A DNA stretch of 64,000 nucleotides from Pseudarthrobacter sp. BIM B-2242 (lineage in GTDB: Bacteria; Actinomycetota; Actinomycetes; Actinomycetales; Micrococcaceae), in NCBI RefSeq assembly GCF_014764445.1, contig NZ_CP061721.1, positions 3,286,001 to 3,350,000 of the forward strand, in the 5' to 3' direction. Shown piece after piece: positions 35,452 to 59,380 of the stretch. Under the pieces are notes generated by a model, which saw only the letters and a list, made by a program, of their open reading frames with translations, did not search any database and had not been told where the DNA came from. Both the position numbers and the translations under genes were made by a program. The stretch's first letter is position 1, and each line of letters starts with the position of its first letter.

Positions 35452-35467
35452 CAAGACGAGCGTTTGT
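35452..35467. promoter_or_regulatory. TetR-type box a
   Basis: CAAGACGAGCGTTTGT, a 7-2-7 near-palindrome. Its left arm matches box h (59365) and its right arm matches box b (37474). It lies upstream of the ligase-MFS operon. Confidence 0.65.
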
Positions 35468-35537
35468 TCTTAGACTATCCGGACGCGACAGAAGGTGCGA
35501 TCCTCGATCGCTATACCTGAACCAGGGTCGCTGGCTG

Positions 35538-35822
35538 CTACTCCCTCAGCTGATGGGTCAGCACTTCAAATTCGTCCACGCCGAGGATTTCCATATGTTG
35601 TTCGGCCGTGGTTTCGGCGCGGATGCGGTCCACCACCGGACGGCTGGCATCAAGAGCGTCCTCGTCGTCCCACAGGGTGAGGGCAAGTGAGGTGTCTTCT
35701 TTGCCCAACAGGTAATAGATACCCCGGCACCCGGGCAATCCAAGCACTTGCTGGACGGTTTCCCCTGAGGGCTTTCCGGAACTGCCAGGTGCTGGGCGGT
35801 ACGTGCTGACGCGAGCAAACAT
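35538..35822 (-). CDS. Antibiotic-biosynthesis-monooxygenase-like small protein
   Basis: A 94-aa dimeric alpha+beta barrel type protein: MFARVSTYRPAPGSS at the start, GCRGIYYLLGKEDTSLALTLWDDEDAL in the middle. The pattern resembles ABM/Dabb domain proteins with cofactor-free oxygenase or stabilising roles. The start at 35822 has GGAGG upstream. Upstream of the ligase gene by 167 bp, with the TetR box between, so it may be transcribed separately. Exact function is unknown. Confidence 0.65.
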   Translation of the reverse strand: MFARVSTYRPAPGSSGKPSGETVQQVLGLPGCRGIYYLLGKEDTSLALTLWDDEDALDASRPVVDRIRAETTAEQHMEILGVDEFEVLTHQLRE

Positions 35823-35908
35823 TATCGATCCTCCAACAGTTGCTGGTGAAGCCTGCGCGCGGCTCAAGGTGGTGGCGGCAAGCTCAGAGGCATGGCCTCA
35901 TCCCACCA

Positions 35909-35972
35909 GTAAGGACCCGGGTTGCTCGAAGCGCAAGATGAGTGAAATCTACTGCCCCGCCCGGGTCCTTAC
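35909..35972 (-). terminator. Inverted repeat after the MHS transporter gene
   Basis: Perfect 13-bp arms GTAAGGACCCGGG (35909-35921) and CCCGGGTCCTTAC (35960-35972) separated by 38 bp, just downstream of the MHS stop on the minus strand. The long loop makes it a weak terminator; a protein-binding site is possible. Confidence 0.5.
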
Positions 35973-35994
35973 CCAGTCACTGTGGTGGCTGTGG

Positions 35995-37347
35995 TCAGTG
36001 TTCCTCGTCCAGCGAATGCTTGTACCGCTCCGGCAGGGTCAGCGTGGCAATGATGGAAATCATCACGATGCCCAGTGCGATTGCCGTCAGGGCGAACGTT
36101 CCGTTCTCCGTGTTCTGGAAGATCCATGCGGCGATGAACGGAATGGGCGCACCAAAGATCAGGCCCGCCAGGGTCATGCCAAGCGCGGATCCGGTGTAGC
36201 GCATGCTCGTGGGGAGCGATTCGGCGAAGAACGCGGCCTGCGTTCCGGCGGTGACCTGGATCCCGCACAGGGCCAGGGCGATGATCGCGACACTGGCAGG
36301 GTAGTTCATCGTGTTCATGACGGGGAACATGGTGCCGGCCGCGATGCCCTGCATGACCAGGCCCAAGAGGAAGGTCTTCTTTCGGCCGATGCGGTCACTG
36401 AGGCGGCCGCCCAGGACCGCCGCGGGAATCGACACGAGGTTGGCGACGAGCAGGAGCCCGAAGGTGATCGAGTTGTCGTAACCCAGTTCCTTGGTCAGGT
36501 AGTTCACGGCATAGGTAACGCTGATCCAGAAAAGGCCGGCAGATGCAGCCCAGGACAGAACCAGCTTGATGACCGTTCCCGGCTTCTTGAGAATCACTGC
36601 CAGAGCGCGTTCCTGCGGGATGGCCGATTCGGCTGCCTTCTTTTGGTTTTCCTTGAAAGCCGGCGTTTCTTCGATCCGCCGGCGGATGAATACGCCAACA
36701 ACCAGCAAGAACACGCCCATAAGGAAAGGAATCCTCCAGCCCCACGCTGCGAAGTCATCCTTGGACAGGAACATGGCCAGTCCGGTGAGGGTAATGGACG
36801 CGAAGGTCTGGGCGAGAGGCGAACCCGTAGCCAGGATGCCGCCATACAGGCCGCGGTGATTCGTCGGGGCATGTTCAACAACCAGCACCTGGACACCGGT
36901 GGCCTCGCCGCCGAGTGCGAAGCCTTGGAGGAACCGAAGAACCACCAGGAGTATCGGGGCGACAATCCCGGCCATAGCGTAAGTAGGCAGCAACCCGATG
37001 AGTATGGAAGCCGCGCCCATAAGGACCAGTGTGAACATCAGCACGTTGCGCCGGCCGATCCTGTCGCCCAGGGCACCGAAGACGATGCCGCCCAGCGGAC
37101 GGGCAACCATGCCTGCGCCGAAGGTGGCAAAGGAGGCAAGGATTGCAGTGTTTTCATCGAAGCCGGGGAAGAAGAGCTGGGGAAAGAGGGTTGCGGAAAG
37201 GGTGCCGTATACGGCGAAATCGAACCACTCGAGGGCGGTGCCGAAAGTCCCGCTCACAACGGCCCGCCGCGACGTCTTCGGATCGAACGTGGGTGCTTCG
37301 CCCGCCTGGGGCGGAAAATGCTCTACAGGCTTGGTCAATTCCGACAT
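35995..37347 (-). CDS. MFS transporter, metabolite:H+ symporter (MHS) family
   Basis: A 450-aa carrier of the ShiA/KgtP/ProP group. It shows the family's N-terminal helix (GTFGTALEWFDFAVYGTLSATLF), loop PLGGIVFGALGDRIGRRNVLM, FLQGFALGGEATGVQVLVVEHAP and GGRLSDRIGRKKTF. MHS proteins import organic acids, often dicarboxylates or aromatic acids, with protons. With its own TetR box 127 bp upstream it is a single-gene unit in the catabolic island and probably a substrate importer. Confidence 0.88.
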   Translation of the reverse strand: MSELTKPVEHFPPQAGEAPTFDPKTSRRAVVSGTFGTALEWFDFAVYGTLSATLFPQLFFPGFDENTAILASFATFGAGMVARPLGGIVFGALGDRIGRRNVLMFTLVLMGAASILIGLLPTYAMAGIVAPILLVVLRFLQGFALGGEATGVQVLVVEHAPTNHRGLYGGILATGSPLAQTFASITLTGLAMFLSKDDFAAWGWRIPFLMGVFLLVVGVFIRRRIEETPAFKENQKKAAESAIPQERALAVILKKPGTVIKLVLSWAASAGLFWISVTYAVNYLTKELGYDNSITFGLLLVANLVSIPAAVLGGRLSDRIGRKKTFLLGLVMQGIAAGTMFPVMNTMNYPASVAIIALALCGIQVTAGTQAAFFAESLPTSMRYTGSALGMTLAGLIFGAPIPFIAAWIFQNTENGTFALTAIALGIVMISIIATLTLPERYKHSLDEEH

Positions 37348-37473
37348 TGGAACTCACTCCTAAATCGATGGAAAGTCAGCGGCATCAGCCGGTCTACCGT
37401 GCGGCAAACTGCACCGGAGTTCGGATACGCCTTCAGACGAGGGTCCTGCACCGCGAGGGATCTGCAATAAAAA

Positions 37474-37489
37474 ACAAGCGTTCGTTTGT
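37474..37489. promoter_or_regulatory. TetR-type box b
   Basis: ACAAGCGTTCGTTTGT, arms ACAAgCG / CGtTTGT around TT, the most symmetric copy. It lies upstream of the MHS transporter gene. Confidence 0.75.
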
Positions 37490-37626: not shown

Positions 37627-38112
37627 CTATGCAGAGGCTGTGGCAGGGGCTCCCGCGGCGACCTCTGCGCGGCGCTTCATCAGGGCGGTCCGGCGGACAA
37701 CGCAAACCAGTTCGTCGTTCTGGTTGTAGCCGCGGTGCTCGATGCCCACGATGCCCGTCTCCGGGCGGGACTTTGATTCGCGCTTGTCCAGGGCCTGGGT
37801 CTCCACGCGCAGGGTATCGCCGAAGAAAACCGGCTTGGGGAACTCGATGTCACGGAAGCCGAGGTTACCGAGGGTGGTGCCGAGCGTGGTGTCCTGCACG
37901 GGAACGCCGGTGACCACGCCGAGGGTGAAGATGCTGTTGACGATCTGGCGCCCATAGATGCTGTTCTTTGAGAACTCGGCATCCAGGTGCAGCGGCTGGA
38001 CGTTCATGGTCAGCGTGGTGATCAGCAGGTTGTCCGTCTCCGTGACGGTACGGGTCACTTCATGCTTGATGACGTCGCCAACAATGAAATCCTCGTAGTA
38101 CATTCCGGCCAT
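37627..38112 (-). CDS. MaoC-family (R)-enoyl-CoA hydratase
   Basis: A 161-aa hot-dog-fold hydratase. It begins MYYEDFIVGDVIKHEVTRTVTETDN and has the active-site region LHLDAEFSKNSIYGRQIVNSIFTLGV, in which Asp and a following region replace the usual D-x4-H arrangement of MaoC. It is last in a five-gene operon after the CitE-like lyase gene. In M. tuberculosis the equivalent pair (Rv2499c, Rv2498c) hydrates an unsaturated dicarboxyl-CoA and then cleaves it; I infer the same order here. GAAGGAGG precedes the ATG. Confidence 0.82.
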   Translation of the reverse strand: MAGMYYEDFIVGDVIKHEVTRTVTETDNLLITTLTMNVQPLHLDAEFSKNSIYGRQIVNSIFTLGVVTGVPVQDTTLGTTLGNLGFRDIEFPKPVFFGDTLRVETQALDKRESKSRPETGIVGIEHRGYNQNDELVCVVRRTALMKRRAEVAAGAPATASA

Positions 38113-38169
38113 GACTGGCCTCCTTCTCGCGTTTAGTTCTGCTGGTTTTCTTGGGGGGCAGGGCAGGTC

Positions 38170-39036
38170 TTACGTTTTCGCGAGGGCAAGGGCCTCGCGG
38201 GCGTGGTTCGCGTGTGCCAGGTCGATATGGTCGCCCCGGAAGGAGACAGCCCCGTGCCCGTTGCGCTGGCCTTCTTCAAATGCCTCGATCAGGCCTTGGT
38301 AGTAGTCCTGAAGAGTCGCTGTTAGTCCGTATTCCTCGTTGGCGATAGGTGCGTGTGAGGGGTGGATAAGGACCTGGCCTGTGTAGCCGAGCCCGCTGTT
38401 GTCCTGCGCGAAGACGCGCAAACCGTCAAGGTTTCGGACCTCCTGCCAGAGGCCCAACACGATCGTGCGGATACCCGCGGCACGAGCGGCCACAACCACC
38501 TTGGAACGCAGGTAGAGGGTCTCCACCCCCGCGGCTGTCCAGCGGAAGCCGACTTCCCTTGAGACGTCCGCGTCCTTGGCGGCTGCCGCCATGACGCCGC
38601 CCACCCGCGGGCCGGCCAGGATTTCGTCCACCTTGCTGATGGACGCCGCAGTCTCCAGTGACGGGACGAGCTCAACGGTGCCGCGATCAATCCCGTGCTC
38701 CAGCTCCGCGGCGGTGACCAGGGCATCGAACCGGACCACGTCGTCGCGTGAGAACAGCTTGGGCAGCAGGAACGCAGTCAGGTTCCGGTGCGTCACGGTG
38801 GCCACGTCCCGGCCGAAGAACTCAGTGTCCAGGGCGTTTGGACGGACCAGGATCCCCTTGGAACCGTCATGGGCTTCGAGGGCTTCACGGGCGTTGGCGC
38901 GGGCCAGTTCCTTGTCCTGTGAGGGGACGGAATCCTCGAGGTCGATGATCACGGCGTCGGCTTCGGAGTTCAAGGCTTTGTCGATCCAGTCCCTCTTGTG
39001 GCCGGGGACAAAGAGCAGGGAGCGGTAGGGCTTCAT
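38170..39036 (-). CDS. CitE-like beta-hydroxyacyl-CoA lyase (HpcH/HpaI family)
   Basis: A 288-aa TIM-barrel lyase. Motifs: SLLFVPGHKRDWIDKAL, the Mg-binding ADAVIIDLEDSVP near residue 35, LVRPNALDTEFF with the CoA/substrate arginine, ELVPSLETAASI (catalytic Glu), and GYTGQVLIHPSH. It should cleave 3-hydroxydicarboxyl-CoA such as HMG-CoA, citramalyl-CoA or malyl-CoA to acetyl-CoA plus a keto acid. No alpha or gamma citrate-lyase subunits are nearby, so it acts on CoA esters. It overlaps the carboxylase gene by 4 bp (ATGA). Confidence 0.87.
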   Translation of the reverse strand: MKPYRSLLFVPGHKRDWIDKALNSEADAVIIDLEDSVPSQDKELARANAREALEAHDGSKGILVRPNALDTEFFGRDVATVTHRNLTAFLLPKLFSRDDVVRFDALVTAAELEHGIDRGTVELVPSLETAASISKVDEILAGPRVGGVMAAAAKDADVSREVGFRWTAAGVETLYLRSKVVVAARAAGIRTIVLGLWQEVRNLDGLRVFAQDNSGLGYTGQVLIHPSHAPIANEEYGLTATLQDYYQGLIEAFEEGQRNGHGAVSFRGDHIDLAHANHAREALALAKT

Positions 39037-40796
39037 GCTGCAGCCTCCTCGGTCACCTTGGTCAGCAGCGTGCCGGCTGCGAGGGATTCACCGATACTTG
39101 CAGTGATGTCACCGACGACGCCGGCCACCGGGGCAGCGATGGGGTTCTCCATCTTCATGGCCTCGAGAACGAACATCACGTCACCCTTGGCTACCTTTTG
39201 GCCTGGCGTCACATTGATTTTAATGATGGTGCCCTGCATCGGAGCCTTGACCGTGCCATCGCTGACAACCTCGCGCCTGGCCCGTGCCTGGCGGGTCTTC
39301 CCGACGGCGGCAGCGGGATCGCCGGGCGCGGTGTCCGCACCCCCTGCAGCAACAGCACTGCCGTAGCCGCCGGCGGTGCCGTAATCGCTGAAAGTGGGGA
39401 TGATGTAGAAGCGTCCGCCCACTTCCACGTTGGCGCGGTCAACGGGTTCCGGCTCGGTGAAGTCAACCGATTCCTCGAGCCACAGCGTGCTGAAGCGCAG
39501 TTCCTGGAAGTCCGGGTGCGACACAATGATCTTCGCGGCCGGGGCCGTGGTGGGAACCCCCTCTACCTGCAGCCTGTCCAGGCCATCAAGCAGGCGCTTC
39601 ATGGCCGTGGCACGGTCAGGACCGTACGCGATCAGCTTGCCGATGAGGCTGTCGTAGAACGGCAGCACGGTGTCACCGGACTCGTAGCCGGCATCAAAAC
39701 GCAGGCCTTCACCGTCAGGCGCATTCAGCACCTGCACCGGTCCAGGTGCTGGAAGGAAACGGCCCTCGGCGACGTCCTCAGCGTTGATTCGGGCTTCGAT
39801 GGCTGCACCCTGGGGCTTCAGGTTGTTGAGGATTGAAAGCTTCTCCCCTGCCGCGACGCGGATCTGTTCCGCGATGAGGTCCACCCCGTGGACCATTTCC
39901 GTGACCGGGTGCTCCACCTGGATGCGGGTGTTCATTTCCAGGAAGTAGAACTTTTCGTCTTCCACAAGGAACTCCACGGTTCCGGCACCGACGTATCCCA
40001 CTTCGCGGGCCAGCCGCACCGCGGACTCGCCCATGGCCGCACGCAGTGCATCCGACAGGCCTGGGGCCGGGGACTCTTCGATCAGCTTCTGGTGCCGGCG
40101 CTGCACGGAGCAGTCGCGGTCCCCGACGTAAACGGCGTTGCCATGGGTATCGGCGAAAACCTGGACCTCAACGTGGCGTGCATGCGTGAGGTACCGTTCC
40201 AGGTACACCTCGCCATTGCCGAACGCGGCAGTGGCTTCACGGACGGCGGCGTCGAAAGCTTCCCTGGCCTGGGGTTCGGAGTCGATGCGGCGCATGCCAC
40301 GTCCCCCGCCACCGGCTGAAGCCTTGACCAGCACGGGGTAGCCGTGCTCGGCGCCGAACGCTTCAACTTCAGCAGCGCTGGCGATCGCACCATCAGTGCC
40401 CGGCGCCAGAGGCACCTGGACGCGGATGGCCACATCCCGGGCCGCGACCTTGCCGCCCATGGTGGTGATGGCGTGCGGGGAAGGACCAATGAAGGTCAGG
40501 CCGGCGGCCGCGACCGCTTCGGCGAACTCCGGGTTTTCCGAGAGGAACCCATAGCCCGGGTGGATCGCCTGGGCACCGGATTCAAGGGCGGCTGCGATGA
40601 TCTTGGGGATATTCAAGTAGTTCTCGCTGGCGGGCCCGTCACCGAGGTTGATGGCGGCATCCGCCACTCGCACGTGCAATGAGCCGGCGTCGGCGGCTGA
40701 ATACACTGCCACGGACTCGATGCCCATAGCACGGCAGCTGCGGGACACCCGGACAGAAATTTCGCCACGGTTGGCGATGAGGATCTTGGTAAACAT
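39033..40796 (-). CDS. Acyl-CoA carboxylase alpha subunit (biotin carboxylase + BCCP)
   Basis: A 587-aa protein with biotin carboxylase (TKILIANRGEISVRVSRSCR at the N-terminus, ATP-grasp GGGGRGMRR, FYFLEMNTRIQVEHPVTE), a linker barrel and a C-terminal biotinyl domain with VLEAMKMENPI (biotin on the Lys). It carboxylates biotin with ATP and bicarbonate for the beta subunit at 55288, which is 14 kb away but under the same kind of box. Size and layout match AccA1/methylcrotonyl-CoA carboxylase alpha. The start at 40796 drops 23 residues of the longer frame. Confidence 0.92.
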   Translation of the reverse strand: MFTKILIANRGEISVRVSRSCRAMGIESVAVYSAADAGSLHVRVADAAINLGDGPASENYLNIPKIIAAALESGAQAIHPGYGFLSENPEFAEAVAAAGLTFIGPSPHAITTMGGKVAARDVAIRVQVPLAPGTDGAIASAAEVEAFGAEHGYPVLVKASAGGGGRGMRRIDSEPQAREAFDAAVREATAAFGNGEVYLERYLTHARHVEVQVFADTHGNAVYVGDRDCSVQRRHQKLIEESPAPGLSDALRAAMGESAVRLAREVGYVGAGTVEFLVEDEKFYFLEMNTRIQVEHPVTEMVHGVDLIAEQIRVAAGEKLSILNNLKPQGAAIEARINAEDVAEGRFLPAPGPVQVLNAPDGEGLRFDAGYESGDTVLPFYDSLIGKLIAYGPDRATAMKRLLDGLDRLQVEGVPTTAPAAKIIVSHPDFQELRFSTLWLEESVDFTEPEPVDRANVEVGGRFYIIPTFSDYGTAGGYGSAVAAGGADTAPGDPAAAVGKTRQARARREVVSDGTVKAPMQGTIIKINVTPGQKVAKGDVMFVLEAMKMENPIAAPVAGVVGDITASIGESLAAGTLLTKVTEEAAA

Positions 40797-40837
40797 GATG
40801 GTCCTTAGTGCTAGGGCGCAGGAATCAGGGGCCGGAT

Positions 40838-41659
40838 TCAGCGCAGGATGCAGGCGTTGCGGCATTCGCCGATGCCGGAGATCGAGGTGGTGACGACGCT
40901 GCCGTCAGCCAGGAATTCCTTGGGATTAAGGCCGTCGCCCACTCCCCCGGGGGTTCCGGTGAGGATTACATCACCGGGGTTGAGCGTGGTCACCGCGGAG
41001 ATGTAGCGGACCAGCTCAACTGGACCGAACACCAAATCACCGGTGTCCGCCTTTTGCTTAGTGGCGCCGTCCACGGTGCAGGAAATCTCCAGCGCGGGTG
41101 CACTGCCGGCCTCATCGGCCGTCAGCAGGAACGGACCCAGAGGCGTGGTTGCATCGAAGGTTTTGCCCTGCAGCCACTCCGTGGTGCGGCGCTGGAAGTC
41201 GCGGGCTGAAATGTCGTTGGCAACCGTGAACCCGGCGATCGCGGCCGCGGCTTCCTCCTCCGTGGCCCGTGAGACCCGGCTGCCGATCACCACGGCCAGT
41301 TCGGCTTCCCAGTCCACTGCTTCCGATCCCGGCGGCAACACGATGGGATCGTTCGCCCCGATCAGGGCGTCGGCGAACTTCGCAAAAAGCGTGGGATGGG
41401 TCGGCAGTTCCCGGCCCATCTCCAGGATGTGCTCACGGTAGTTCAGCCCTACGCACACAATTTTTCCGGGTGCGGTGACCAACGGCGCAAAGTCCGCCTC
41501 TGACAACACCAGTCGTGCGCCGCCGTCGTACGCTTCAACCGCGGGCGAACCGGCACGCAGCCACTCCCCGACGTCGGAAAACGGCAACAGGGTCAAAGCA
41601 CCTTCTGCCTCGACGGCGGCCGACGTGCCTCCTTCAATGCGTACAGTTGCGAGTTTCAT
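40838..41659 (-). CDS. Fumarylacetoacetate hydrolase (FAH) family protein
   Basis: A 273-aa enzyme with the FAH fold. CVGLNYREHILEMG, the metal triad region AVDWEAELAVVIG and NDISARDFQRRTTEW are typical, as is DVILTGTPGGVG. Family members hydrolyse C-C bonds of acylpyruvates or decarboxylate/hydrate oxo-acids (e.g. 2-oxo-hept-3-ene-1,7-dioate hydratase). It overlaps the ligase gene by 4 bp (ATGA). Its presence hints at a keto-diacid intermediate from ring or chain cleavage. Confidence 0.83.
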   Translation of the reverse strand: MKLATVRIEGGTSAAVEAEGALTLLPFSDVGEWLRAGSPAVEAYDGGARLVLSEADFAPLVTAPGKIVCVGLNYREHILEMGRELPTHPTLFAKFADALIGANDPIVLPPGSEAVDWEAELAVVIGSRVSRATEEEAAAAIAGFTVANDISARDFQRRTTEWLQGKTFDATTPLGPFLLTADEAGSAPALEISCTVDGATKQKADTGDLVFGPVELVRYISAVTTLNPGDVILTGTPGGVGDGLNPKEFLADGSVVTTSISGIGECRNACILR

Positions 41660-43191
41660 GCTCCCCATCCAAGGTTTGTCTTGAGCTGCGATTTCACGAG
41701 CTTCCCGGCGGCAGACCTCGGCAGCTGGTCCGCGCCCATAAAGACGATCTTCTTCGGGATCTTGTACCCGGCCAGGTGGGAGCGCAGAAAGGTGGAGAGC
41801 TCCTCACCGTTGGCGCTGACTCCGTGACGGAGTACGACGACGGCGCGCACCTCCTCGTCCCAGCGAGGGTCAGGGACACCCACCACAGCCGCTTCCAGGA
41901 CTGCGGGGTGAAGGTGCAGCGCCTGTTCGATTTCCGCGCAATAGACGTTTTCGCCACCGGTCTTGATCATTTCCTTGAGACGGTCGCGGAAGAAGTAGTA
42001 GCCGCGCTCATCCTGTACCGCGAGGTCGCCGGTGTGCAGCCAGCCGCCACGGAATGCCTCGGCGGTGGCATCCGTCCGGCCGTAGTAGCCAGTCATCAAC
42101 GAGGGACCCTTGACGCAGATCTCGCCGAGCTCGCCGGGTGCAACCGGCTGGCCGAGCGGATCCTGGAGTTGGGCCTCGGCCAATAGGTATTCGGTTCCGA
42201 TCGAACCGTCCACGGCCGGGTCCAGCATGTCCCGTGGCTTGAGCCTGGTGACCATGGGCCCGGCTTCGGTCAGTCCGTAGCGGAAGTACAGTTCGGCGCC
42301 GGGCAGCAGATCCGTAAACAGCTGCTTGTCCGGCATCCGCAGCAGGCCCGCACCGGTATGAACGGCTTTAAGATGGGTCCTGATGGCCTGATCCGCGAAA
42401 ACCCCGCTCTCCATAAGGCGGCGCATCATGTTGGGAATGAGGAACGTGTTGGTGATCCGTTCCCGTCCCACGAGGTCCACGATGAGTTCGTCGTTGAACT
42501 TCTCCGCGATGACGCTGGTGGCGCCGGCGATGAAGTGGGGAACCAGCCAGCACAGCAAAGCAGCCGAGTGGAACAACGGCGTGACAATCAGGCCGCGTTC
42601 GTCCTGCCGGTTGCCGACTCCGCAGTCGTACATTTCGTTGAAGGCGTTGGCCGCTGCCGCGCCGTGCGACATGACCACCCCCTTGGGAGTGCCGGTGCTG
42701 CCGCCGGTATATATGATGCACAGCGGGCTGTCCAATGTGGTGACGTCCTCAAGCGGACCCGCGCCGGTGTGCAGGCCCTCAAACTCCGCACCCTGGCGGA
42801 CCAGGTGCGGAACTTCCCCTTCAGTACGGCCAAGGATTTCAAGGGCTTCCTCGGCATTGGGAAGCATGCGTTCCTCGACCAGGATGATCTTCGCGCCCGT
42901 TTCCTTCATGCCCGCGGCAAGTTCCGCCGGGGCCCAGCGCCAGTTGTACGCCACGTAGGTGCCGCCGGCCGCGGCGACACCAAAGAATGCTTCAGCATTA
43001 AAGACCGAATTGCCGGCAAGGACGCCCACATTGTCGCCTGCGCGGACGCCGGCGTCCCGCAGGCCACGGCCCAGGCCCCAAGCGCGCTCCGCGAGTTGAC
43101 CGAAGGTCAGCCGGCTGGTGCCGTCCACCAAGGCCTCACGCGTGGGGTAGCGCCGGTGGTTGAGCCTGATCCACTCACCAATCGTTCGCAA
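41656..43191 (-). CDS. Acyl-CoA ligase (FadD-like)
   Basis: A 511-aa ANL enzyme with canonical motifs: IIYTGGSTGTPKGVVMSH (phosphate loop), YRYGLTEAGPMVT-type A5 (FRYGLTEAGP), GWLHTGDLAVQDERGYYFFRDRLKEMIKTGGENVYCAEIE and PRSAAGKLVKSQL with the catalytic Lys. It activates a carboxylic acid to its CoA ester and is the first gene of the ligase-FAH-carboxylase-CitE-MaoC operon. It would feed the pathway; FadD35 holds this place at the mycobacterial locus I recall. Confidence 0.9.
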   Translation of the reverse strand: MRTIGEWIRLNHRRYPTREALVDGTSRLTFGQLAERAWGLGRGLRDAGVRAGDNVGVLAGNSVFNAEAFFGVAAAGGTYVAYNWRWAPAELAAGMKETGAKIILVEERMLPNAEEALEILGRTEGEVPHLVRQGAEFEGLHTGAGPLEDVTTLDSPLCIIYTGGSTGTPKGVVMSHGAAAANAFNEMYDCGVGNRQDERGLIVTPLFHSAALLCWLVPHFIAGATSVIAEKFNDELIVDLVGRERITNTFLIPNMMRRLMESGVFADQAIRTHLKAVHTGAGLLRMPDKQLFTDLLPGAELYFRYGLTEAGPMVTRLKPRDMLDPAVDGSIGTEYLLAEAQLQDPLGQPVAPGELGEICVKGPSLMTGYYGRTDATAEAFRGGWLHTGDLAVQDERGYYFFRDRLKEMIKTGGENVYCAEIEQALHLHPAVLEAAVVGVPDPRWDEEVRAVVVLRHGVSANGEELSTFLRSHLAGYKIPKKIVFMGADQLPRSAAGKLVKSQLKTNLGWGA

Positions 43192-43260
43192 TGTTTACTC
43201 CTCGGTCGGGCTGAAGTGGGCCGTTGTGTCGCGGACTCCACGACACTTGTTCATCAACGA

Positions 43261-43276
43261 ACAAGCGTACGTTCGA
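43261..43276. promoter_or_regulatory. TetR-type box c
   Basis: ACAAGCGTACGTTCGA, 70 bp upstream of the ligase operon. A second inverted repeat CTTGTTC / GAACAAG overlaps its left side. Confidence 0.7.
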
Positions 43277-49657: not shown

Positions 49658-49709
49658 GTGATCAGGCATTGACATCGCCAAGAACATCCGCAAAACTCAG
49701 CTTAACGTA

Positions 49710-50912: not shown

Positions 50913-51668
50913 ATGAGCACTCCCCTAAACATCCTGGTGACTGGCGCTGGCGGCGGTATGTGCCGCGGCATCAACGCCCGCCTCGCCGGAGCCGGCCACA
51001 CCATCGTCTGCGTTGACCTGAACGCCGAAGCCAGCGAGGCGGCCGCCCAAACCATCCGGGACTCGGGCGGGAATGCAAGTGCCTTTGCCGCAGACGTGGC
51101 CGATGAAGCCGCCGTCGCCCGCCTCCTTGCCGAGGTGACCTCGGCAGTAGGTCCCGTGCAGGCGCTGGTCAATGCCGCGGGCATCCTGGACCGCAAGTAC
51201 CTCGCGGATAGCACCGCCGAATCCTTCCGCCGCGCGCTGGACGTAAACCTGGTTGGCCCGTTCAACCTCATCAGGGCGTTCTCCCCCGCCATGATCGAAG
51301 CCGGCTGGGGGCGGATCATCAACATCGCCTCCATCGCCGGCGTTACGGGCTACCCGTACCCGAGCTATGCGGCGTCGAAAGCCGGCCTCGCCAACCTCAC
51401 GCGTTCGCTCCTCGAAGATTTCTGGGGCACGGGGGTCACCGTCAATTCAGTGTGCCCAGGGGTGGTGGACACCCCCATGGTCATCCAGGAGGTCCGGGAC
51501 CAGGTCCGACGGCGTGTCCCCACGCAGAACGTCATCGAACCTGCTGAGATCGGAGCCATGATTGCCTTCCTCCTCACCGACGACGCGCGCAATATCAACG
51601 GTGCGGACCTTCTGATCGACGGCGGCGCCACCCGCCTCTTCTCGCTGTTCAACAACCATGAGGGCTGA
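50913..51668 (+). CDS. Short-chain dehydrogenase/reductase
   Basis: A 251-aa Rossmann enzyme. The cofactor motif is TGAGGGMCRG (classical TGxxxGxG with Cys in place of the last conserved position), NAAG is present, and the catalytic Tyr-Lys pair is YPSYAASKAG. It ends in GGATRLFSLF. It would interconvert an alcohol and a ketone, probably after the OYE step. It overlaps the metallo-beta-lactamase-fold gene by 11 bp. Confidence 0.87.
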   Translation: MSTPLNILVTGAGGGMCRGINARLAGAGHTIVCVDLNAEASEAAAQTIRDSGGNASAFAADVADEAAVARLLAEVTSAVGPVQALVNAAGILDRKYLADSTAESFRRALDVNLVGPFNLIRAFSPAMIEAGWGRIINIASIAGVTGYPYPSYAASKAGLANLTRSLLEDFWGTGVTVNSVCPGVVDTPMVIQEVRDQVRRRVPTQNVIEPAEIGAMIAFLLTDDARNINGADLLIDGGATRLFSLFNNHEG

Positions 51669-52718: not shown

Positions 52719-53222
52719 TTACGCGTCAGGAATCCAGTCCGGGGTAGGTTCAATCAGGCTCGACATGGGTGGGCGCACCTGATCCCCGGTGAGCAGGTCG
52801 ATCCGGGTCCGGAGGAGCCGCATGACAGAAATGCGCCATCGTCCGTTGAGGCGGCGGTATTCCTCTTCGTAAAAGCCGTACCCCCGGATTCCATACAGTC
52901 CGGGGACACAGGCCCCGCGGTAGTCCCTGCTGTCACGGGGCCACAGCAGGTAATCGTGCATTGACCAGAGTCCATGGATAGCGCTGTCGGCGGTAGCTGC
53001 CAACCGGGGCATAAAGCCCTGGTGCACAGAGTCCACACCATGCAGGAACCCCGATACGCTCCGGACGAAGTCATCTGCGTCCTCCGTATCGAAAGGAAAG
53101 CCGCCGAAAGTGGCATCGGCATGGAACAGGGACCTCAGGCCAGACCAATTCTTGGCGTCAAGGTGCCGAAAATAGTCGGCCTTGAGATTCCTGATCTCTT
53201 CAAAGTCTTCGGGTCCGGTCAC
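52719..53222 (-). CDS. SnoaL/NTF2-like protein
   Basis: A 167-aa cone-fold protein: EIRNLKADYFRHLDAKNWSGLRSLFHADATFGG at the start, DSAIHGLWSMHDYLLWPR and GFYEEEYRRLNGRWRISVMRLLRTRID later. The YFRHLD and FHADAT positions match the active-site Tyr and Asp of the dehydratase/isomerase-like 'SnoaL_4' group. It may isomerise or dehydrate a steroid- or terpenoid-like intermediate. GTG start 53222 overlaps the DMT stop (GTGA) and has GGAGG upstream. Confidence 0.78.
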   Translation of the reverse strand: MTGPEDFEEIRNLKADYFRHLDAKNWSGLRSLFHADATFGGFPFDTEDADDFVRSVSGFLHGVDSVHQGFMPRLAATADSAIHGLWSMHDYLLWPRDSRDYRGACVPGLYGIRGYGFYEEEYRRLNGRWRISVMRLLRTRIDLLTGDQVRPPMSSLIEPTPDWIPDA

Positions 53223-54187
53223 TTTGTTTCCTCCATCTCCCCGTCCGGGGACTCCAGGGTTCGGTTCGAGCCTGCTTGCGCCAGGCCGGTCCGGGCGTCG
53301 CCGGCCGGCACGGCGCCCGCTTGGGCCAGGACAATCCCGGCAATGACGATCGCAGCTCCGGCGAGCTGATTCCAGGTGATTTCCTCGTGGAGTACCAGCG
53401 CACCGAGGGCCACCCCCACCAGCGGAGTGATGTAGGCAACCGTGGATGCTGCCGTGGCACCCCACTGGCCGATGAGGCGGAAATTCCAGATGTAAGCCAG
53501 GCCGGTACTAACCACGCCGAGCAGCAACATGCCAACCACCACCGGTACGGTCAGCGTCACCGGGCCCACGGCAATGAAGGGCGCCATGACCAGCACCAGC
53601 AGGCATGCCGCTGCCATCTGGACAGCGGCCACGCCGACGGGATCCGCTGAGTGCGGCGAAACGTATTTCTTCGTGTACGCAAAGACAACGCCGAAGCAGA
53701 GCACTGCTCCGAGGCAGGCGAACTGCCCCCACAAATCGACTGCGTCCGCGGCGTAGAAGCGCCAGGGCGATAACACCAGGAGGATTCCGACGGCGCCCGT
53801 GAGGATGCCGGCCAGCTTCCACCGCGTTACTTTTTCCTGCCGCAAGGCCAGGGCTGTGACCGCAGCAGTGGCAAGCGGCACCGCCGAGTTCAGGACGCTG
53901 GAGACGCCACTCGGGATCCGTTCCGCCGCCCAGGCGAACAGCAGGAACGGAATGACGCAGCCGACGGCGGCGGTCACCGCCAGATGAAGCCAGAGTTGGC
54001 GTTGCCGGGGCCACGGGCGCCGCGCCAGGACCAACAGCAGGCTCAACGCCAGCGCACCGAGGACCAGCCTCCCCAGGACCACCTGTCCCGGTGACAGCCC
54101 GGCCACCGCCAGTTTCATCATCAGGAAACTGGAACCCCAAGCTCCTCCGAGCAGGATGAAACGGACCACCGCACCGGCAGGAGTCAT
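53219..54187 (-). CDS. EamA/DMT-family transporter
   Basis: A 322-aa membrane protein with ten helices in two EamA repeats; the first begins FILLGGAWGSSFLMMKLAVAGLSPGQVVLGRL and the second GLAYIWNFRLIGQWGATAASTVAYITPLVGVALGALVLHEEI. DMT proteins usually export metabolites. A C-terminal cytosolic tail of about 35 residues follows the last helix. Coupled by overlap to the SnoaL-like gene, in the carboxylase-beta operon. Confidence 0.85.
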   Translation of the reverse strand: MTPAGAVVRFILLGGAWGSSFLMMKLAVAGLSPGQVVLGRLVLGALALSLLLVLARRPWPRQRQLWLHLAVTAAVGCVIPFLLFAWAAERIPSGVSSVLNSAVPLATAAVTALALRQEKVTRWKLAGILTGAVGILLVLSPWRFYAADAVDLWGQFACLGAVLCFGVVFAYTKKYVSPHSADPVGVAAVQMAAACLLVLVMAPFIAVGPVTLTVPVVVGMLLLGVVSTGLAYIWNFRLIGQWGATAASTVAYITPLVGVALGALVLHEEITWNQLAGAAIVIAGIVLAQAGAVPAGDARTGLAQAGSNRTLESPDGEMEETK

Positions 54188-54243
54188 GCTTGTTCCTTTC
54201 CTGGCCCGCTTCCCGTGGCCGTCGGTTCAATCAACGCGGGCAG

Positions 54244-54951
54244 TCAGATGATGACAATTTCCTCGGCCAGGCAGGCATGCAACCGGGTCAGGACGCCTTG
54301 GAGTCCGTCCATTCCCTGAGCCAGCTGCTGGTCCAGCTCATCAGCAGCCGCCTGGGCGGCGGCCTGGGTAGCAAAGCCGATGGAGACAGCCACTTCTGGA
54401 ATCGGTTCTTCGCGGCGCAACGCCTCGCGGACTAACAGCTCGGCCCCCGGGACCAGGACGTTCACGCCCCAGCCGAGGGCGCCGTCGTGCGTTGCGGACA
54501 GCTGCTCCGCCCAGAACTCGAGGGCATCCCGTGCCGGTTCTGCCCCGTCCGCCCAGCGGGCCAGCACCCAGACCTTGAACGGCCAGTGAGCGTTCGGCGT
54601 GCCGGCCGTGACCGGTCCACCGGTCAGGCCGCTGAGGAAGTTCGGTTCGTCCACAATCAGCCGGGCGGCGACGTCGGACGCGAATCCCGCTCCCACGACC
54701 TTCTCATCGGCGAACCACAACTCCACGATGCCGTCGACGCGGTACGCCAAGCCCTCCGCCGACTCCTCGACGGCGGATGCGGCAGCGGGCGCGGACGATT
54801 GGCCGGCGGGCGGCAGAACGTGGTTCTGCCGGTAGGCCGTCACGCCAGGCAGATCCCGGGCTATCTCGGCGTGCGTGGTTGACCAGTGGGTCCGGAACGC
54901 TTCCCGGTCCTTGTCCGGCCGGGCTTCCAGATACGTGATCCGCTTGGGCAT
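54244..54951 (-). CDS. EthD-domain protein, two-domain form
   Basis: A 235-aa protein. Residues 1-110 are an EthD domain (ARPDKDREAFRTHWSTTHAEIARDLPGVTAYRQNHV, DGIVELWFADEK). Residues ~125-235 look like a second, degenerate ferredoxin-like barrel (KVWVLARWADGAEPARDALEFWAEQL, VAVSIGFATQAAAQAAADEL). EthD proteins are small partners in ring or ether degradation; some catalyse cyclisation or dehydration. It is 3 bp from a second EthD gene. Confidence 0.75.
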   Translation of the reverse strand: MPKRITYLEARPDKDREAFRTHWSTTHAEIARDLPGVTAYRQNHVLPPAGQSSAPAAASAVEESAEGLAYRVDGIVELWFADEKVVGAGFASDVAARLIVDEPNFLSGLTGGPVTAGTPNAHWPFKVWVLARWADGAEPARDALEFWAEQLSATHDGALGWGVNVLVPGAELLVREALRREEPIPEVAVSIGFATQAAAQAAADELDQQLAQGMDGLQGVLTRLHACLAEEIVII

Positions 54952-54954
54952 TCG

Positions 54955-55278
54955 TCAGGCACCTGCCGTCAGCGGCACGTCGATTTCCTCGGCCAGGAAC
55001 CATTCAACGCTTTCAAGGAAGTGGTGCTCATGGTCGAACAGTTCCTTGCCTTCGGGCCCTGCGTAGGCCACCTTGACGTCCTCCACCGACGCGAACCAAA
55101 GCTCAGCCATGCCGCTGTAGGGCCAGGGCTTCCGGTGCTCAATGGCGGGGTTCTGGCGGTATCGGATAATCCCCGGCAGCTTCCGCACGTAGTCCGGATG
55201 TTCCGCGTTCCAGAAGTGCAGGAACTCCTCTCTTGTGAGTTCCGGCTTTGCCTTGATCACTGCCACTACTTTGATCAC
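54955..55278 (-). CDS. EthD-domain protein, single domain
   Basis: A 107-aa dimeric alpha+beta barrel: VVAVIKAKPELTREEFLHFWNAEHPDYVRKLPGIIRYRQNP and GMAELWFASVEDVKVAYAGPEGKELFDHEHHFL. The H-P-D and R-Y-x-Q-N positions match those of EthD and methylmuconolactone-isomerase-like proteins. It is next to the carboxylase beta gene (9 bp). The tandem of single and double forms suggests a heteromer or two successive steps. Confidence 0.82.
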   Translation of the reverse strand: MIKVVAVIKAKPELTREEFLHFWNAEHPDYVRKLPGIIRYRQNPAIEHRKPWPYSGMAELWFASVEDVKVAYAGPEGKELFDHEHHFLESVEWFLAEEIDVPLTAGA

Positions 55279-55287
55279 GGGTTCCGC

Positions 55288-56871
55288 CTAGGCCGGGGTG
55301 ACGGCCTGGCGCCGCTCAACGGGGACCATCTTGCGCTTGGAGTACAGTCCAAGCCGCCTGGTCAGGTCAGCACGAAGCTCGTTGGCGGGAACCACGGCCT
55401 CCACAGCGTTCGCGTTGGCGATCTTGAACACGTCGATGCCTTCGGCGTACTCGTTGTGCTTTTCCAGGATGAAGGCCTTGCGTGCAACGGGGTCCTCAAT
55501 CTCGTGGATCTGGTTGTAGTAGATGCCGTTGACGGCAGCGTCGGGACCCATGAGTGCGGGGCGGGCCGTGGGCAACGCAATGACCGCGTCCGGGTTCATG
55601 GGGGCACCCGACATGGCGAGGTAGCCGCCGCCGTAGGCCTTGCGGACAAGGACGGTGATGCGCGGGACCCTGCACTCCGAGACTGCGAAGATCATCTTGG
55701 CCCCGTGCCGGATGATGCCCTGGCGCTCCACAGCCGAACCGATCATGTAGCCCGCGATGTCCACGAGGAAAACAATCGGGATGTTGTAGGCGTTGCAGAT
55801 CCAGATGAAGCGGGCAGCCTTGTCCGAGGAGTCGGGGAAGATGGACCCGCCCATGTGCTTGGGCTGGTTGCCTACCAGCCCAACGGGGCGGCCGTTGATC
55901 CGGGCGAACCCTGTCAGCATTTCCGGGGCGAACAGTTCCTTGTACGGGAACCAGGATCCTTCGTCCACGAGGGATTCGACGAATTCCTCCATGTCGAAGA
56001 CTTCAGCTTCGCGGAGGGGCACAATGTCCTGCAGTGACCGGCCCGGGCGGGGTTCAATCGCAGGAGCAAGCGGCGCGGGGGTCTCCCAGTTGGCGGGAAG
56101 GAAGGAAAGCCAGACTCGGATAGCGTTGAGCGCTTCCTCGTCGTCTTCAACCAGTACGTCACCGAGGCCGGAGACGGTGCAGTGCATTTCGGCGCCACCC
56201 ATTTCCTCCAGCGTGACTACTTCACCGGTGACCATTTCGGCCAGGCGGGGTGATCCGAGGTACGCCGTCGCGTGGCCACGGACCATGATGGTCATGTCGC
56301 ACAGCGCGGGAACGTAGGCCGAACCGGCGGGTGAGGGACCGAAGAGTGCGCAGACCTGCGGGACGCGGCCGGAGATCTGGACCTGGTTGTAGAAGATGTT
56401 GCCCCACGCGTGGCGGCCGGCGAAGCTTTCAAACTGCTCGTCGATACGTGCTCCGGCGGAATCGAACAGGTAGACGATGGGGATGCCTGCGGCATCTGCC
56501 TTCGTCTGTGCCTGGATGATTTTTTCAAAGGTACGGTTGCCCCAGGTGCCGGCCTTGACGGAGAAGTCGTTGGCAATAACGCAGACTTCGCGTCCGTCGA
56601 CCCGGCCGAACGCGATGACTACGGCGTCACCTGGCAGGCCTTCTTCATAGCGGGCCAGCAGGCCGTCTTCGATGTAGTTTTCGTCGTCGAAAAGGATCGC
56701 GAGGCGCTGGCGGACCAGGAGCTTGCCGGATTCGATGATTTTCCTGCGGTTCTTTTCGGAACCACCGAGGCGGGCCGAAGCGAGCTTCTCGGTCAGTTGT
56801 TCATGCACCGTGGGTGCCGGAACTTCGATGTCCGACGCCGGCGCGGGGGCGACGATCGTAGCTTCACTCAT
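55288..56871 (-). CDS. Acyl-CoA carboxylase beta subunit (carboxyltransferase)
   Basis: A 527-aa carboxyltransferase with both crotonase-like halves: DAAGIPIVYLFDSAGARIDEQFESFAGRHAWGNIFYNQVQISG in the N half, and IPIVFLVDIAGYMIGSAVERQGIIRHGAKMIFAVSE in the C half, where oxyanion holes form. Length equals methylcrotonyl-/AccD1-type subunits. It would transfer CO2 from biotin on the alpha subunit (39033) to an enoyl- or acyl-CoA. First of a five-gene operon behind box g; GGAGG precedes the ATG. Confidence 0.9.
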   Translation of the reverse strand: MSEATIVAPAPASDIEVPAPTVHEQLTEKLASARLGGSEKNRRKIIESGKLLVRQRLAILFDDENYIEDGLLARYEEGLPGDAVVIAFGRVDGREVCVIANDFSVKAGTWGNRTFEKIIQAQTKADAAGIPIVYLFDSAGARIDEQFESFAGRHAWGNIFYNQVQISGRVPQVCALFGPSPAGSAYVPALCDMTIMVRGHATAYLGSPRLAEMVTGEVVTLEEMGGAEMHCTVSGLGDVLVEDDEEALNAIRVWLSFLPANWETPAPLAPAIEPRPGRSLQDIVPLREAEVFDMEEFVESLVDEGSWFPYKELFAPEMLTGFARINGRPVGLVGNQPKHMGGSIFPDSSDKAARFIWICNAYNIPIVFLVDIAGYMIGSAVERQGIIRHGAKMIFAVSECRVPRITVLVRKAYGGGYLAMSGAPMNPDAVIALPTARPALMGPDAAVNGIYYNQIHEIEDPVARKAFILEKHNEYAEGIDVFKIANANAVEAVVPANELRADLTRRLGLYSKRKMVPVERRQAVTPA

Positions 56872-56918
56872 GTTGAGCCTCCAGAAAATTAGAGTTGGTG
56901 TCCTCTATTAGTATACGA

Positions 56919-56934
56919 ACAAGCGTTCGCTCGT
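56919..56934. promoter_or_regulatory. TetR-type box g
   Basis: ACAAGCGTTCGCTCGT, 48 bp from the carboxylase-beta start and 72 bp from the divergent MaoC start, so it can control both operons. Confidence 0.75.
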
Positions 56935-57005: not shown

Positions 57006-57500
57006 ATGCACGGCACTAATCCCCAAGCGGCCGGCACCACACTGCCGCTTCCCAAGGGCCGCCCCGACCACTTCTGGGAAGACCTGGTGGCCGGTGACGT
57101 GATCCATACGGCCGGAATGACCATCACGGATGCGCACCTGGTCCAATGGGCAGGGCTCACCGGCGACCTTGTCTCGTTGCACCTTGACGAGACCTACGCG
57201 GCAACGACGCCGTTCGGCCAGCGCATTGCCCACGGCCCCCTCACGCTGTCACTGGCACTGGGACTGATGACCCAGACCGGTTACTTCAGCAACGTGGTGG
57301 CCTGGCTGGGACTGGACGAGGTCCGCGCGTCAGCGCCGGTGTTCATCGGCGACACCATCCGCGTCATCGCCACCGTTGATATGGCCCGCGAGACCAAAAA
57401 GCCCGGACAGGGCATCTGGAAAATCAACTACTCGGTCCTGAAACAGGACCACACCACCGTCATGACATTCAGCAGCAGCTTCATCATCAAGAGGAAATAG
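57006..57500 (+). CDS. MaoC-family hydratase/dehydratase
   Basis: A 164-aa hot-dog hydratase distinct from the one at 37627. It has VAGDVIHTAGMTITDAHLVQWAGLTGDLVSLHLDETYAATTPFGQRIAHGPLTLSLALGL, which contains the D-x-x-x-x-H type pair (Asp in GDLVSLHLD, His in IAHGP). It is 3 bp upstream of the acyl-CoA dehydrogenase gene. It probably hydrates the enoyl-CoA formed by that enzyme, or a later unsaturated CoA ester. ATG 57006 follows CAGGAGAGA. Confidence 0.87.
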   Translation: MHGTNPQAAGTTLPLPKGRPDHFWEDLVAGDVIHTAGMTITDAHLVQWAGLTGDLVSLHLDETYAATTPFGQRIAHGPLTLSLALGLMTQTGYFSNVVAWLGLDEVRASAPVFIGDTIRVIATVDMARETKKPGQGIWKINYSVLKQDHTTVMTFSSSFIIKRK

Positions 57501-57503
57501 GCA

Positions 57504-58700
57504 ATGAGCATTCAAGACGATTTCAAACCCGCGCCGCCGGCCGACATCGCCGAGCCCGCCGAATTCGCTGCGCTGCGTCAGCGGGTCCGGGCCGTCCTGG
57601 CCGAACACGTCACCCCGGAACGGCTGAACAAATTCGATGAAGCCGAAGAGTACGACGTCGAACTCTTCCGCGAGATAGCGGCCGCCGGCCTGCTCAAGCT
57701 CGACGGCGAGCTCCACGGCCCTGGCCCGAAGCACCAGGCGCAGGCCGTGGTCCTAGAGGAACTCGGTGCCGGACCCACCTCGGTGGGCGTCAGCATGGTG
57801 GTCCAGTACATGGGTGTCCAACTGCTACACTCGTACGGCAACCGCGAGCAGCAGGAGGAGTTCCTGGCACCCCTGCACGCCGGAGCGGCCAAGATGTCCT
57901 TCGGGCTGAGCGAGCCCGACGGCGGCACTGACGTTGCGCGGGCGATGAAGACTATTGCAACCCGGCTGGAAGACGGCAGCTACTCGATTACCGGGCAGAA
58001 ACGTTGGATCGGTGGTGCGATGGATGCGGACTACCTCATCCTTCTGGCCCGGACCAGTGAAATATCCCGCTCCGCAATCGACGGCATCACCATGTTCCTG
58101 ATCCCGCGGTCCACCCCGGGGATCCGCACCGAAGTCATCGACACCATGGGCATCCGCGGGCTGGCGCAGTGCGATGTCTACCTGGACGACGTCCGCGTCC
58201 CGGCCTCGAACGTCCTCGGAGAACTCGACCGGGGGTTCCGGCAGGTGCTGGACACCCTCAACGGGGAACGGCTCAATGGCGCCGCAGTGGCCCTGGGGAT
58301 CGCGCGCGGAGCCATGGAAACCGCCGTCGGCTGGGCCCGGCAGCGGCACGCCTTCGGCAAGCCGGTAGGTTCGTTCCAGGGCCTGCAGCACAGCCTGGTG
58401 GATGCGAGCGTGAAGATTGAATCGGCGCGGCTCCTGCTGCGTCAGGCCGCAGAAGCGTCCGACGCCGGCCCGGTTACCAATGAGACCTGGTCGGCCATGG
58501 CGAAGCTCGCCGCCTCCGACGCTGCCACCACCACCACGGACATCGGCATGCGCGTCATGGCCGGTTGGGGCTTCTTCCGCGGACTGCCCATGCAGCGCTA
58601 CTTCCGCGACGCCAGGCTGTACACGTTTGCCCCGCTGACGGATGAGATGACCCGAAACTACATCGGTGAGAAGCACCTCGGACTGCCGCGGTCCTTCTGA
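57504..58700 (+). CDS. Acyl-CoA dehydrogenase, isovaleryl/FadE19-like
   Basis: A 398-aa FAD enzyme. Signatures: MSFGLSEPDGGTDVARAMKT near residue 131, GQKRWIGGAMDADYLILLART and MRVMAGWGFFRGLPMQRYFRDARLY. The usual catalytic Glu near the C-terminus (yEGT) is absent (YTFAPLTDEM). Instead Glu255 lies in TLNGERLNG, the helix position used by isovaleryl-CoA and long-chain dehydrogenases. This favours a branched acyl-CoA substrate. Electrons go to ETF. It is the second gene of the MaoC-ACAD operon and ends at a strong terminator. Confidence 0.88.
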   Translation: MSIQDDFKPAPPADIAEPAEFAALRQRVRAVLAEHVTPERLNKFDEAEEYDVELFREIAAAGLLKLDGELHGPGPKHQAQAVVLEELGAGPTSVGVSMVVQYMGVQLLHSYGNREQQEEFLAPLHAGAAKMSFGLSEPDGGTDVARAMKTIATRLEDGSYSITGQKRWIGGAMDADYLILLARTSEISRSAIDGITMFLIPRSTPGIRTEVIDTMGIRGLAQCDVYLDDVRVPASNVLGELDRGFRQVLDTLNGERLNGAAVALGIARGAMETAVGWARQRHAFGKPVGSFQGLQHSLVDASVKIESARLLLRQAAEASDAGPVTNETWSAMAKLAASDAATTTTDIGMRVMAGWGFFRGLPMQRYFRDARLYTFAPLTDEMTRNYIGEKHLGLPRSF

Positions 58701-58718
58701 ACCTGACCAAACGGGAAA

Positions 58719-58750
58719 GAACGACGGCGGGCGCGCACCCGCCGTCGTTC
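58719..58750 (+). terminator. Terminator after the acyl-CoA dehydrogenase gene
   Basis: Perfect 13-bp stem GAACGACGGCGGG / CCCGCCGTCGTTC followed by TTTTGTT. Confidence 0.9.
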
Positions 58751-58782
58751 TTTTGTTCCCTACAACCTCCCGCGCACGAAAA

Positions 58783-58814
58783 ACAGGGTGGCCACCTTCC
58801 GGCAGCCACCCTGT
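58783..58814 (-). terminator. Terminator of the cupin gene
   Basis: Perfect 10-bp stem ACAGGGTGGC / GCCACCCTGT with a 12-nt loop; on the minus strand it is followed by TTTTTCG. Confidence 0.75.
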
Positions 58815-58825
58815 ATTTCCCTCAC

Positions 58826-59275
58826 TCAGGAACGGTAGTCGATCTTCAGGTCCACAATCTCCTGGTCGTGCAGGTTCACTACGATGTTGTCCGGCGTCCG
58901 GGTGGTCATCCAAATCAGTTCTTCGGTCTTGCTGGCGTTGCCTTCGATGTGCGGCATGAACGGCGGCACAAACACGAAGTCCCCCTCTTCCAGGTAGACG
59001 ATCTGGCTATACGCCTCGCCGTAGCGAATAAAGCCACGCCCCTGGAGGACGTAGCCTCCCGTGTTCGCTTCGCCATGGTGGTGGGCGTCCGAGATTTCGC
59101 CCGGACCGGTGTACACCTTGCCAAACCACAGTTGCTCGACAGGGCTGTTTTCCTTGCTGACACCGGAGATGCGGCGGGCATTCAGCGTCTGGCCGGGGGC
59201 GGCCGCTAGCTCGTCGGCACGGTTGACCCGGAACAAATCCACGTTGCGGTTGATATCAAAAGCCACTTCGGTCAT
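58826..59275 (-). CDS. Cupin-domain protein
   Basis: A 149-aa single-cupin protein. Metal-ligand motif 1 is GEISDAHHHGEANTGGYVLQGRGFI near residue 65 (G-x5-H-x-H) and motif 2 is GDFVFVPPFMPHIEGN near 105. It may be a dioxygenase, isomerase or sensor; the substrate cannot be told. Start 59275 has GAGGA upstream; the longer frame to 59431 runs through TetR box h. It is a single-gene unit at the right edge of the island. Confidence 0.82.
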   Translation of the reverse strand: MTEVAFDINRNVDLFRVNRADELAAAPGQTLNARRISGVSKENSPVEQLWFGKVYTGPGEISDAHHHGEANTGGYVLQGRGFIRYGEAYSQIVYLEEGDFVFVPPFMPHIEGNASKTEELIWMTTRTPDNIVVNLHDQEIVDLKIDYRS

Positions 59276-59364
59276 GGCAATCCTCCTGAGGTTTCGAGTT
59301 GCCGCCGGTTTCGTCGTTGCAGCCGGGGGTCCTGATTCAGTATGTCGGCTGCGCCTACAGTAGT

Positions 59365-59380
59365 CAAGACGTACGCTCGT
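59365..59380. promoter_or_regulatory. TetR-type box h
   Basis: CAAGACGTACGCTCGT. Left arm equals that of box a; right arm equals that of box g. It is 90 bp upstream of the cupin gene and marks the right limit of the regulon. Confidence 0.65.

Follow-up and report, generated by a model that had tools for sequence, protein, structure and literature searches.

The window analyzed here, the whole 64-kb stretch of the soil bacterium Pseudarthrobacter sp. BIM B-2242 at NZ_CP061721.1 3,286,001–3,350,000, contains an island of about 25 genes in ten units, with unit membership assigned from gene order. Among them is a TetR-family regulator (TetR; 48970–49593, minus strand, 207 aa), the proposed repressor of the island. 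A sequence-only reading of this DNA had claimed eight 16-bp near-palindromes and a regulon of about 24 genes. Direct reading and a pattern search found all eight palindromes, starting at 35456, 37474, 43261, 47507, 49641, 49709, 56919, and 59369. The coordinates previously given for 37474, 43261, 47507, and 56919 were exact, those given as 49642 and 49710 correspond to 49641 and 49709, and the pair placed at 35452 and 59365 was out of register by 4 bp. The same reading placed each copy at an operon promoter, including divergent pairs and the promoter of TetR itself; the sites occupy the promoter gaps of ten transcription units, and three of these gaps are divergent. As putative operators, seven of the eight are strongly supported by the sequence comparisons described below, and 49641 is weakly supported.

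The units and sites are described from left to right, with promoter boxes that are consensus matches and not mapped starts. The first operon (32785–35454, minus strand) encodes FadDa, an AMP-binding coenzyme A (CoA) ligase (33970–35454, true start uncertain), and an MFS transporter (32785–33954). Its putative operator, ACGAGCGTTTGTTCTT (35456–35471), ends one base upstream of the −35 box of the FadDa promoter (TTGATC-17-CATACT). MFS2, of the metabolite/H+ symporter type (35995–37347), and the small open reading frame g5, which has no family match (35538–35822), form the next unit (35538–37347, minus strand), preceded by a putative operator at 37470–37489 with overlapping registers at 37470 and 37474. 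The operon at 37627–43191 (minus strand) comprises genes for the CoA ligase FadDb (41656–43191), an FAH-family hydrolase (40838–41668), the biotin carboxylase AccA (39033–40865), a CitE-like lyase (38170–39036), and the hydratase MaoC1 (37627–38112); the putative operator upstream of it (43257–43276) has registers at 43257 (23.4 bits) and 43261 (9.1 bits). LivH, a fused LivM-LivG, and LivF of an ABC uptake system are encoded with a Usp-family protein at 43441–47447 (minus strand), and the substrate-binding protein (SBP) of the system at 47614–48834 (plus strand). Between them, a putative operator with two overlapping registers (47503–47522) lies inside the −35/−10 spacer of the SBP promoter (TTGACA-17-TTTGAT) and just downstream of the LivH promoter (TTGACA-18-TAGACT).

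The gap between TetR and the divergent gene for an old yellow enzyme (OYE) places two palindromes in the regulator's own promoter. The stronger (49705–49724, two overlapping registers, 49705/49709) is just upstream of the OYE start and downstream of the OYE promoter (TTGACA-17-AAAACT). The weaker, ACAAGCGTCCGCTTCT (49641–49656), stands before the TetR gene and is followed directly by a −10-like TAGGAT, with no good −35 box. The OYE operon (49740–52701, plus strand) continues from OYE (49740–50849) to an SDR (50913–51668) and a metallo-β-lactamase-fold hydrolase (51658–52701). The carboxyltransferase gene accD (AccD, 55288–56871) is followed by EthD, EamA, and SnoaL genes (52719–54951; unit 52719–56871, minus strand), and another promoter may lie in the 336-bp gap that follows AccD. 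Divergent from AccD is a plus-strand unit (57006–58700) for the hydratase MaoC2 (57006–57500) and an acyl-CoA dehydrogenase (57504–58700); the shared putative operator (56915–56934, two overlapping registers) covers the −35 edge and spacer of the AccD promoter (TAGACG-16-TATACT). The final unit encodes a cupin protein (58826–59275, minus strand), and its putative operator, ACGTACGCTCGTTCGT (59369–59384), ends one base upstream of the −35 box (TTGACT-17-CATACT).

All eight sites are intergenic, given an SBP start at 47614 and a start of the flanking trypsin-like gene downstream of site 59369; longer frames (SBP from 47398, the trypsin-like gene from 59342) would include 47507 and 59369. The trypsin-like protein of six relatives aligns only from residue 45 or later, past the site. 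An SBP beginning at 47614 has an N-terminus that we take to be a lipoprotein signal peptide, and in four relatives the longer SBP frame also stays open and can be aligned upstream; the choice of 47614 over the longer frame is a judgement. Gaps account for 2,129 of the 23,929 bp of the island (8.9%), and eight of eight sites would therefore fall in gaps by chance with a probability of about 4e-9.

In the 4.78-Mb genome (two contigs), ACAAGCGNNCGTTCGT was found at five places with at most one mismatch, four of them in the island. The degenerate palindrome ACNARCGNNCGYTNGT, at the same tolerance, was found at 41 places, including seven in the island, which is 0.5% of the genome; the density outside predicts 0.17 places in 23.9 kb. 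Site 35456 has two mismatches to ACNARCGNNCGYTNGT and is not among the 41. These whole-genome counts are partly circular in that the pattern was drawn from the sites themselves. Of the 34 places outside the island, 30 exceed the 5th percentile of known genes in coding score; the other four are ambiguous and not above it. All eight island sites fall below that percentile, and an origin as chance palindromes in coding DNA was rejected for them, using a score trained and calibrated on genes of the window.

Enrichment P values from a pattern derived from the sites are circular, and an independent matrix was made de novo to lessen this. The input consisted of 250-bp stretches upstream of the ten unit-leading genes, found by homology in other genomes with the window excluded; removal of near-duplicate DNA reduced 107 stretches to 77. 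Expectation-maximization (EM) was used to search for a 16-bp palindrome from 120 random starts, with neither a pattern nor window DNA supplied, although the ten gene classes are those adjoining the claimed sites and the genomes those with a TetR relative. The six best starts all gave ACGAACGATCGTTCGT (ACGAACG-NN-CGTTCGT). The log-likelihood was 516.7 on the 77 stretches versus 18.8, 21.0, and 27.0 on three shuffled inputs, and a control of 106 stretches preceding 13 other genes (mostly within operons) reached 204.3 with a different motif. When the window was scored with this matrix, all 11 positions of at least 14 bits lay at seven of the eight sites. The 14-bit threshold was chosen because the best place outside the sites scores 8.99 bits (23363). 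Sixty simulated 64-kb sequences contained a mean of 0.35 positions of at least 14 bits; their best scores averaged 12.7 and peaked at 22.3.

Rearranged orthologous islands carry the motif at the same promoters. It reached at least 12 bits in 65 of the 77 upstream stretches from relatives: 11/11 for FadDb, 3/3 for LivH, 9/11 for MFS2, 9/10 for AccD, 9/11 for the cupin gene, and 22/25 for TetR, with 1/2 for FadDa (present in genome G392), 1/2 for MaoC2, and 0/2 for OYE. Before deduplication, there were 15 OYE, 11 MaoC2, and 2 SBP stretches, most of which share DNA with the TetR, AccD, and LivH gaps. A FadDb search of 396 genomes of the order provided held-out material in the form of two genomes from families besides the window's own, neither used in training. 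One (G525) has sites of 22–25 bits at FadDb, TetR, and AccD/MaoC2, together with an extra strong place at 4700/4704 that was assigned to no promoter and one inside a gene-like stretch (9062). The other (G682) has sites of 21–24 bits, one location being LivH/SBP and the other the interval from TetR to FadDb.

The reach of the operator was assessed upstream of 38 TetR loci by seeking the pattern within 300 bp, where random 300-bp stretches reach two or fewer mismatches in 5.9% of cases. For L001–L013 (70–93% identity), the best upstream match had at most one mismatch in four loci, two in eight, and three in one. L015 has a two-mismatch site upstream and an exact site downstream of TetR, L016 and L017 have a site downstream only, and L019 and L026 have a one-mismatch site upstream. 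No site was found upstream of TetR in L014 or within 300 bp in L018, and in all 18 distant loci (L020–L038 minus L026) the best upstream match had three to five mismatches. By this comparison, the putative operator code is one of the near TetR clade and is not general across TetR proteins.

The regulator belongs to the TetR_C_24 subgroup of the TetR family, scoring 53.7 bits for the TetR_N helix-turn-helix (PF00440; cut-off 24) and 88.7 bits for the TetR_C_24 ligand domain (PF17932; cut-off 26.4). All 16 aligned homologs, the least similar at 28% identity, retain the recognition-helix stretch SLYNHIDSKE or a near variant. The predicted structure (pLDDT, the model's own confidence score, 93.5) is closest to 3him, AibR with isovaleryl-CoA, PfmR, and KstR2. 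The earlier proposal of a single, local TetR regulon is supported by the recurrence of the motif in rearranged islands, the retained recognition helix, and the presence of the motif before 22 of the 25 TetR copies from relatives.

At five sites of the eight, a second register shifted leftward by 4 bp (37470, 43257, 47503, 49705, and 56915) fits with at most one mismatch per half-site, and in four of these five the left register outscores the first with the independent matrix. These five sites may be 20-bp elements with four half-sites. Under an exact flank rule, double registers were present in two of the eight window sites and 15 of 54 sites from relatives, and the motif partly matches itself when shifted by 4; double operators would make up at most part of the set. 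The 54 sites were picked with the window pattern, so a matrix derived from them is not independent. In assembling them, three matches were dropped by hand (two far ones in L026 and one in G064), overlaps of 4 bp were merged (from 70 to 59), and duplicates were removed. The suggestion that 35452 and 59365 form a separate site class with an altered left arm, CAAGACG, was rejected. The CAAG common to both is the complement of CTTG in CTTGAC/CTTGAT, part of the −35 box that at both promoters begins a single base past the operator, and is not an operator arm.

Site 49641 scores −0.4 bits in its own register and 9.25 bits in a shifted register with the independent matrix. It was retained as a weak site because L003, L004, and G231 have a site at the equivalent place before TetR.

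The TetR gene (E ≤1e-30) is present in 11 of 395 family genomes, including the window's own; these belong to 5 of 32 genera, and six of the 11 hold two copies. Named relatives include Pseudarthrobacter, Arthrobacter, a Corynebacterium metagenome-assembled genome (MAG), and Salinisphaera. At the Salinisphaera locus, the MaoC1-CitE-AccA-FAH-FadDb block is present at 69–79% identity, and a site precedes FadDb. In the region upstream of Pta, 11 of 12 genomes of the genus lack AccD, AccA, FadDb, and CitE, and one (G401) has the island there; the island is therefore accessory, and the interval that holds it is variable. In 6 of those 11 genomes, the trypsin-like gene flanking the island starts within 5.5 kb.

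Two nearby copies of TetR occur in several relatives (L007/L011 and L008/L010, each pair on one contig, and G296, G362, G366, G231, G207, and G235). Genes around the TetR copies in L008 and L009 mostly differ from those of the island, which suggests that this regulator clade also has a sister cluster under its control. L004, on a contig labeled as a Ramlibacter MAG, holds part of the island with most genes 82–96% identical to those of the window, perhaps a binning error rather than a transfer. In G392, the Pta match (C1:437677-439755) contains one TAA, and the island is on another contig.

Clues to the pathway come from the nearest relatives of three enzymes. The nearest solved structure to MaoC1 is β-methylmalyl-CoA dehydratase, CitE is nearest to citrate lyase β and malyl-CoA lyases, and AccD matches subunits of the methylmalonyl-/propionyl-CoA type with higher scores than those of the methylcrotonyl- or geranyl-CoA type. 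Because of these affinities, the gene set suggests that an organic acid is degraded through CoA esters, yielding a malyl-CoA-like intermediate for the lyase to cut. Among the openly licensed PubMed Central papers listed by searches, none was relevant to the pathway substrate or this operator, which is no proof of their being unpublished.

Taken together, we favor, with a probability of about 0.85, the interpretation that TetR acts as an autoregulated repressor of the roughly 25-gene accessory acid-degradation island and is probably relieved by an acyl-CoA of the pathway. A TetR dimer would bind each 16-bp site, and two dimers may occupy the longer sites. Bound TetR would block RNA polymerase, because the operators are positioned within the −35/−10 spacer, next to the −10 box, close to the start, or adjoining the −35 box. 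The proposed inducer is an acyl-CoA intermediate made once one of the island's CoA ligases has acted; it would bind the C-terminal domain and release TetR, and an acyl-CoA effector is probable from the fold and the gene neighborhood. Release would switch on uptake systems and enzymes together. An organic acid would then be imported, activated with CoA, and converted to central metabolites through the acyl-CoA dehydrogenase, the biotin carboxylase/carboxyltransferase, the two MaoC hydratases, and the CitE-like lyase.

Several observations weigh against this interpretation. Twelve of the 77 upstream stretches are without the motif, some owing to a different gene order; they include the cupin and MFS2 stretches of G064 and G088, AccD of L016, and TetR of L014 and G207. 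G525 has no site at its cupin, MFS2, and OYE genes, which there follow other genes. Consensus matching gave no convincing promoter boxes for MFS2, FadDb, and MaoC2, and the independent matrix does not separate site 49641 from the background (the unrelated place 23363). The genome was scanned with consensus patterns only, so that weaker remote sites are possible. The sign of the ligand effect is not fixed by homology, since AibR is described in PMC6018408 as repressing in its ligand-bound form. That description also gives some room to a scheme in which TetR is partly an activator, or needs ligand for binding, at some promoters such as those of cupin and FadDa, where an operator one base upstream of the −35 box could also suit activation. 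Operators that touch a −35 box can also block polymerase, however, and those of SBP, AccD, TetR, LivH, and OYE lie in or after the core promoter, as suits repression; we regard this scheme as unlikely.

Two further explanations concern which regulator and which pathway are involved. Real operators might be bound by, or shared with, a different regulator encoded elsewhere, and candidates exist: the genome holds seven other, weaker TetR relatives (E up to 0.001), and a TetR gene (26–29% identical) stands next to Pta in 9 of 12 stretches from other genomes of the genus. Such a scheme is improbable, given that the motif travels with the island TetR gene across genomes, families, and rearranged islands, that the next-best relative in the genome is only 27% identical, and that a core regulator would be an odd partner for an island whose TetR gene is found in so few family genomes. 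Still less credible is a BkaR/leucine-degradation regulon like that of mycobacteria. BkaR (Rv2506) is an autoregulated TetR repressor beside carboxylase and CitE genes, and its operator is GTTA-N-T-N4-A-N-TAAC (PMC3920632). The island TetR likewise adjoins carboxylase and CitE genes and is proposed to be autoregulated, but its operator is unlike that of BkaR, and GTTANTNNNNANTAAC, the BkaR operator, had no match in the window at up to one mismatch. A second TetR-carboxylase pair in the same genome, near C1:1,405,000, has two GTTANTNNNNANTAAC matches in its gap (zero and one mismatch), compared with 0.01 in shuffles. The presence of BkaR-type operators at this separate locus, with their absence from the window, led to rejection of the island as the BkaR/leucine locus, and the closer affinity of the island AccD to methylmalonyl-/propionyl-CoA-type subunits than to methylcrotonyl-/geranyl-CoA ones points the same way. 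The two BkaR-type operators lie at 1711–1752 of L112 (C1:1404000-1412000), between the TetR gene and the carboxylase gene, and that locus is perhaps the leucine-type locus of this genome.

Other known systems share individual features with the proposed acyl-CoA-relieved repressor. KstR2, PfmR, and Bacillus FadR, which are TetR regulators of lipid or steroid catabolism, have the same fold as the island TetR but only 17–30% identity and different gene content. An acyl-CoA role is known for PfmR. AibR of Myxococcus xanthus (5k7f, 5k7h, and 5k7z) resembles the island TetR in sequence and fold at about 30% identity; it is described as controlling a biosynthetic operon, whereas here a catabolic island carries eight sites. 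The ligand of KstR2 is HIP-CoA according to PMC8700777, and the title of 3whc names an acyl-CoA ligand for FadR. The second register that five island sites allow 4 bp away recalls DarR, a dimer of dimers on its 20-bp operator, in which palindromes overlap (PMC10636190), and QacR-like proteins, which bind as two dimers (PMC6018408). These proteins differ in operator sequence and ligand, and the possible two-dimer binding in the island must be read alongside the partial self-similarity of its motif at a shift of 4.

The control logic is ordinary for TetR-controlled catabolic loci. What is offered is a regulator-operator pair for a whole accessory island, whose inducer could lead to the substrate of the pathway. 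The operator set marks pathway genes even where gene order is scrambled between genomes, and the overlapping registers allow a direct test of two-dimer binding. A broader proposal, to which we give slightly less than an even chance, is that the regulator represents an undescribed TetR clade with a conserved ACGAACG-type operator code and some four-half-site operators for two cooperating dimers. It would travel with a mobile CoA-dependent island between bacterial families (probably to Salinisphaera, a proteobacterium) and switch an unrecognized acid-degradation pathway as one unit.

A repeat unit of about 32 bp around AGTGAGAGAGCGT...AAAAC is also dispersed through the window, with two or three head-to-tail copies at 9278–9349, 10601–10689, 13007–13182, 17269–17342, and 61235–61311. 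A core pattern was found at 42 genome places with at most two mismatches, compared with none for its reversed control.

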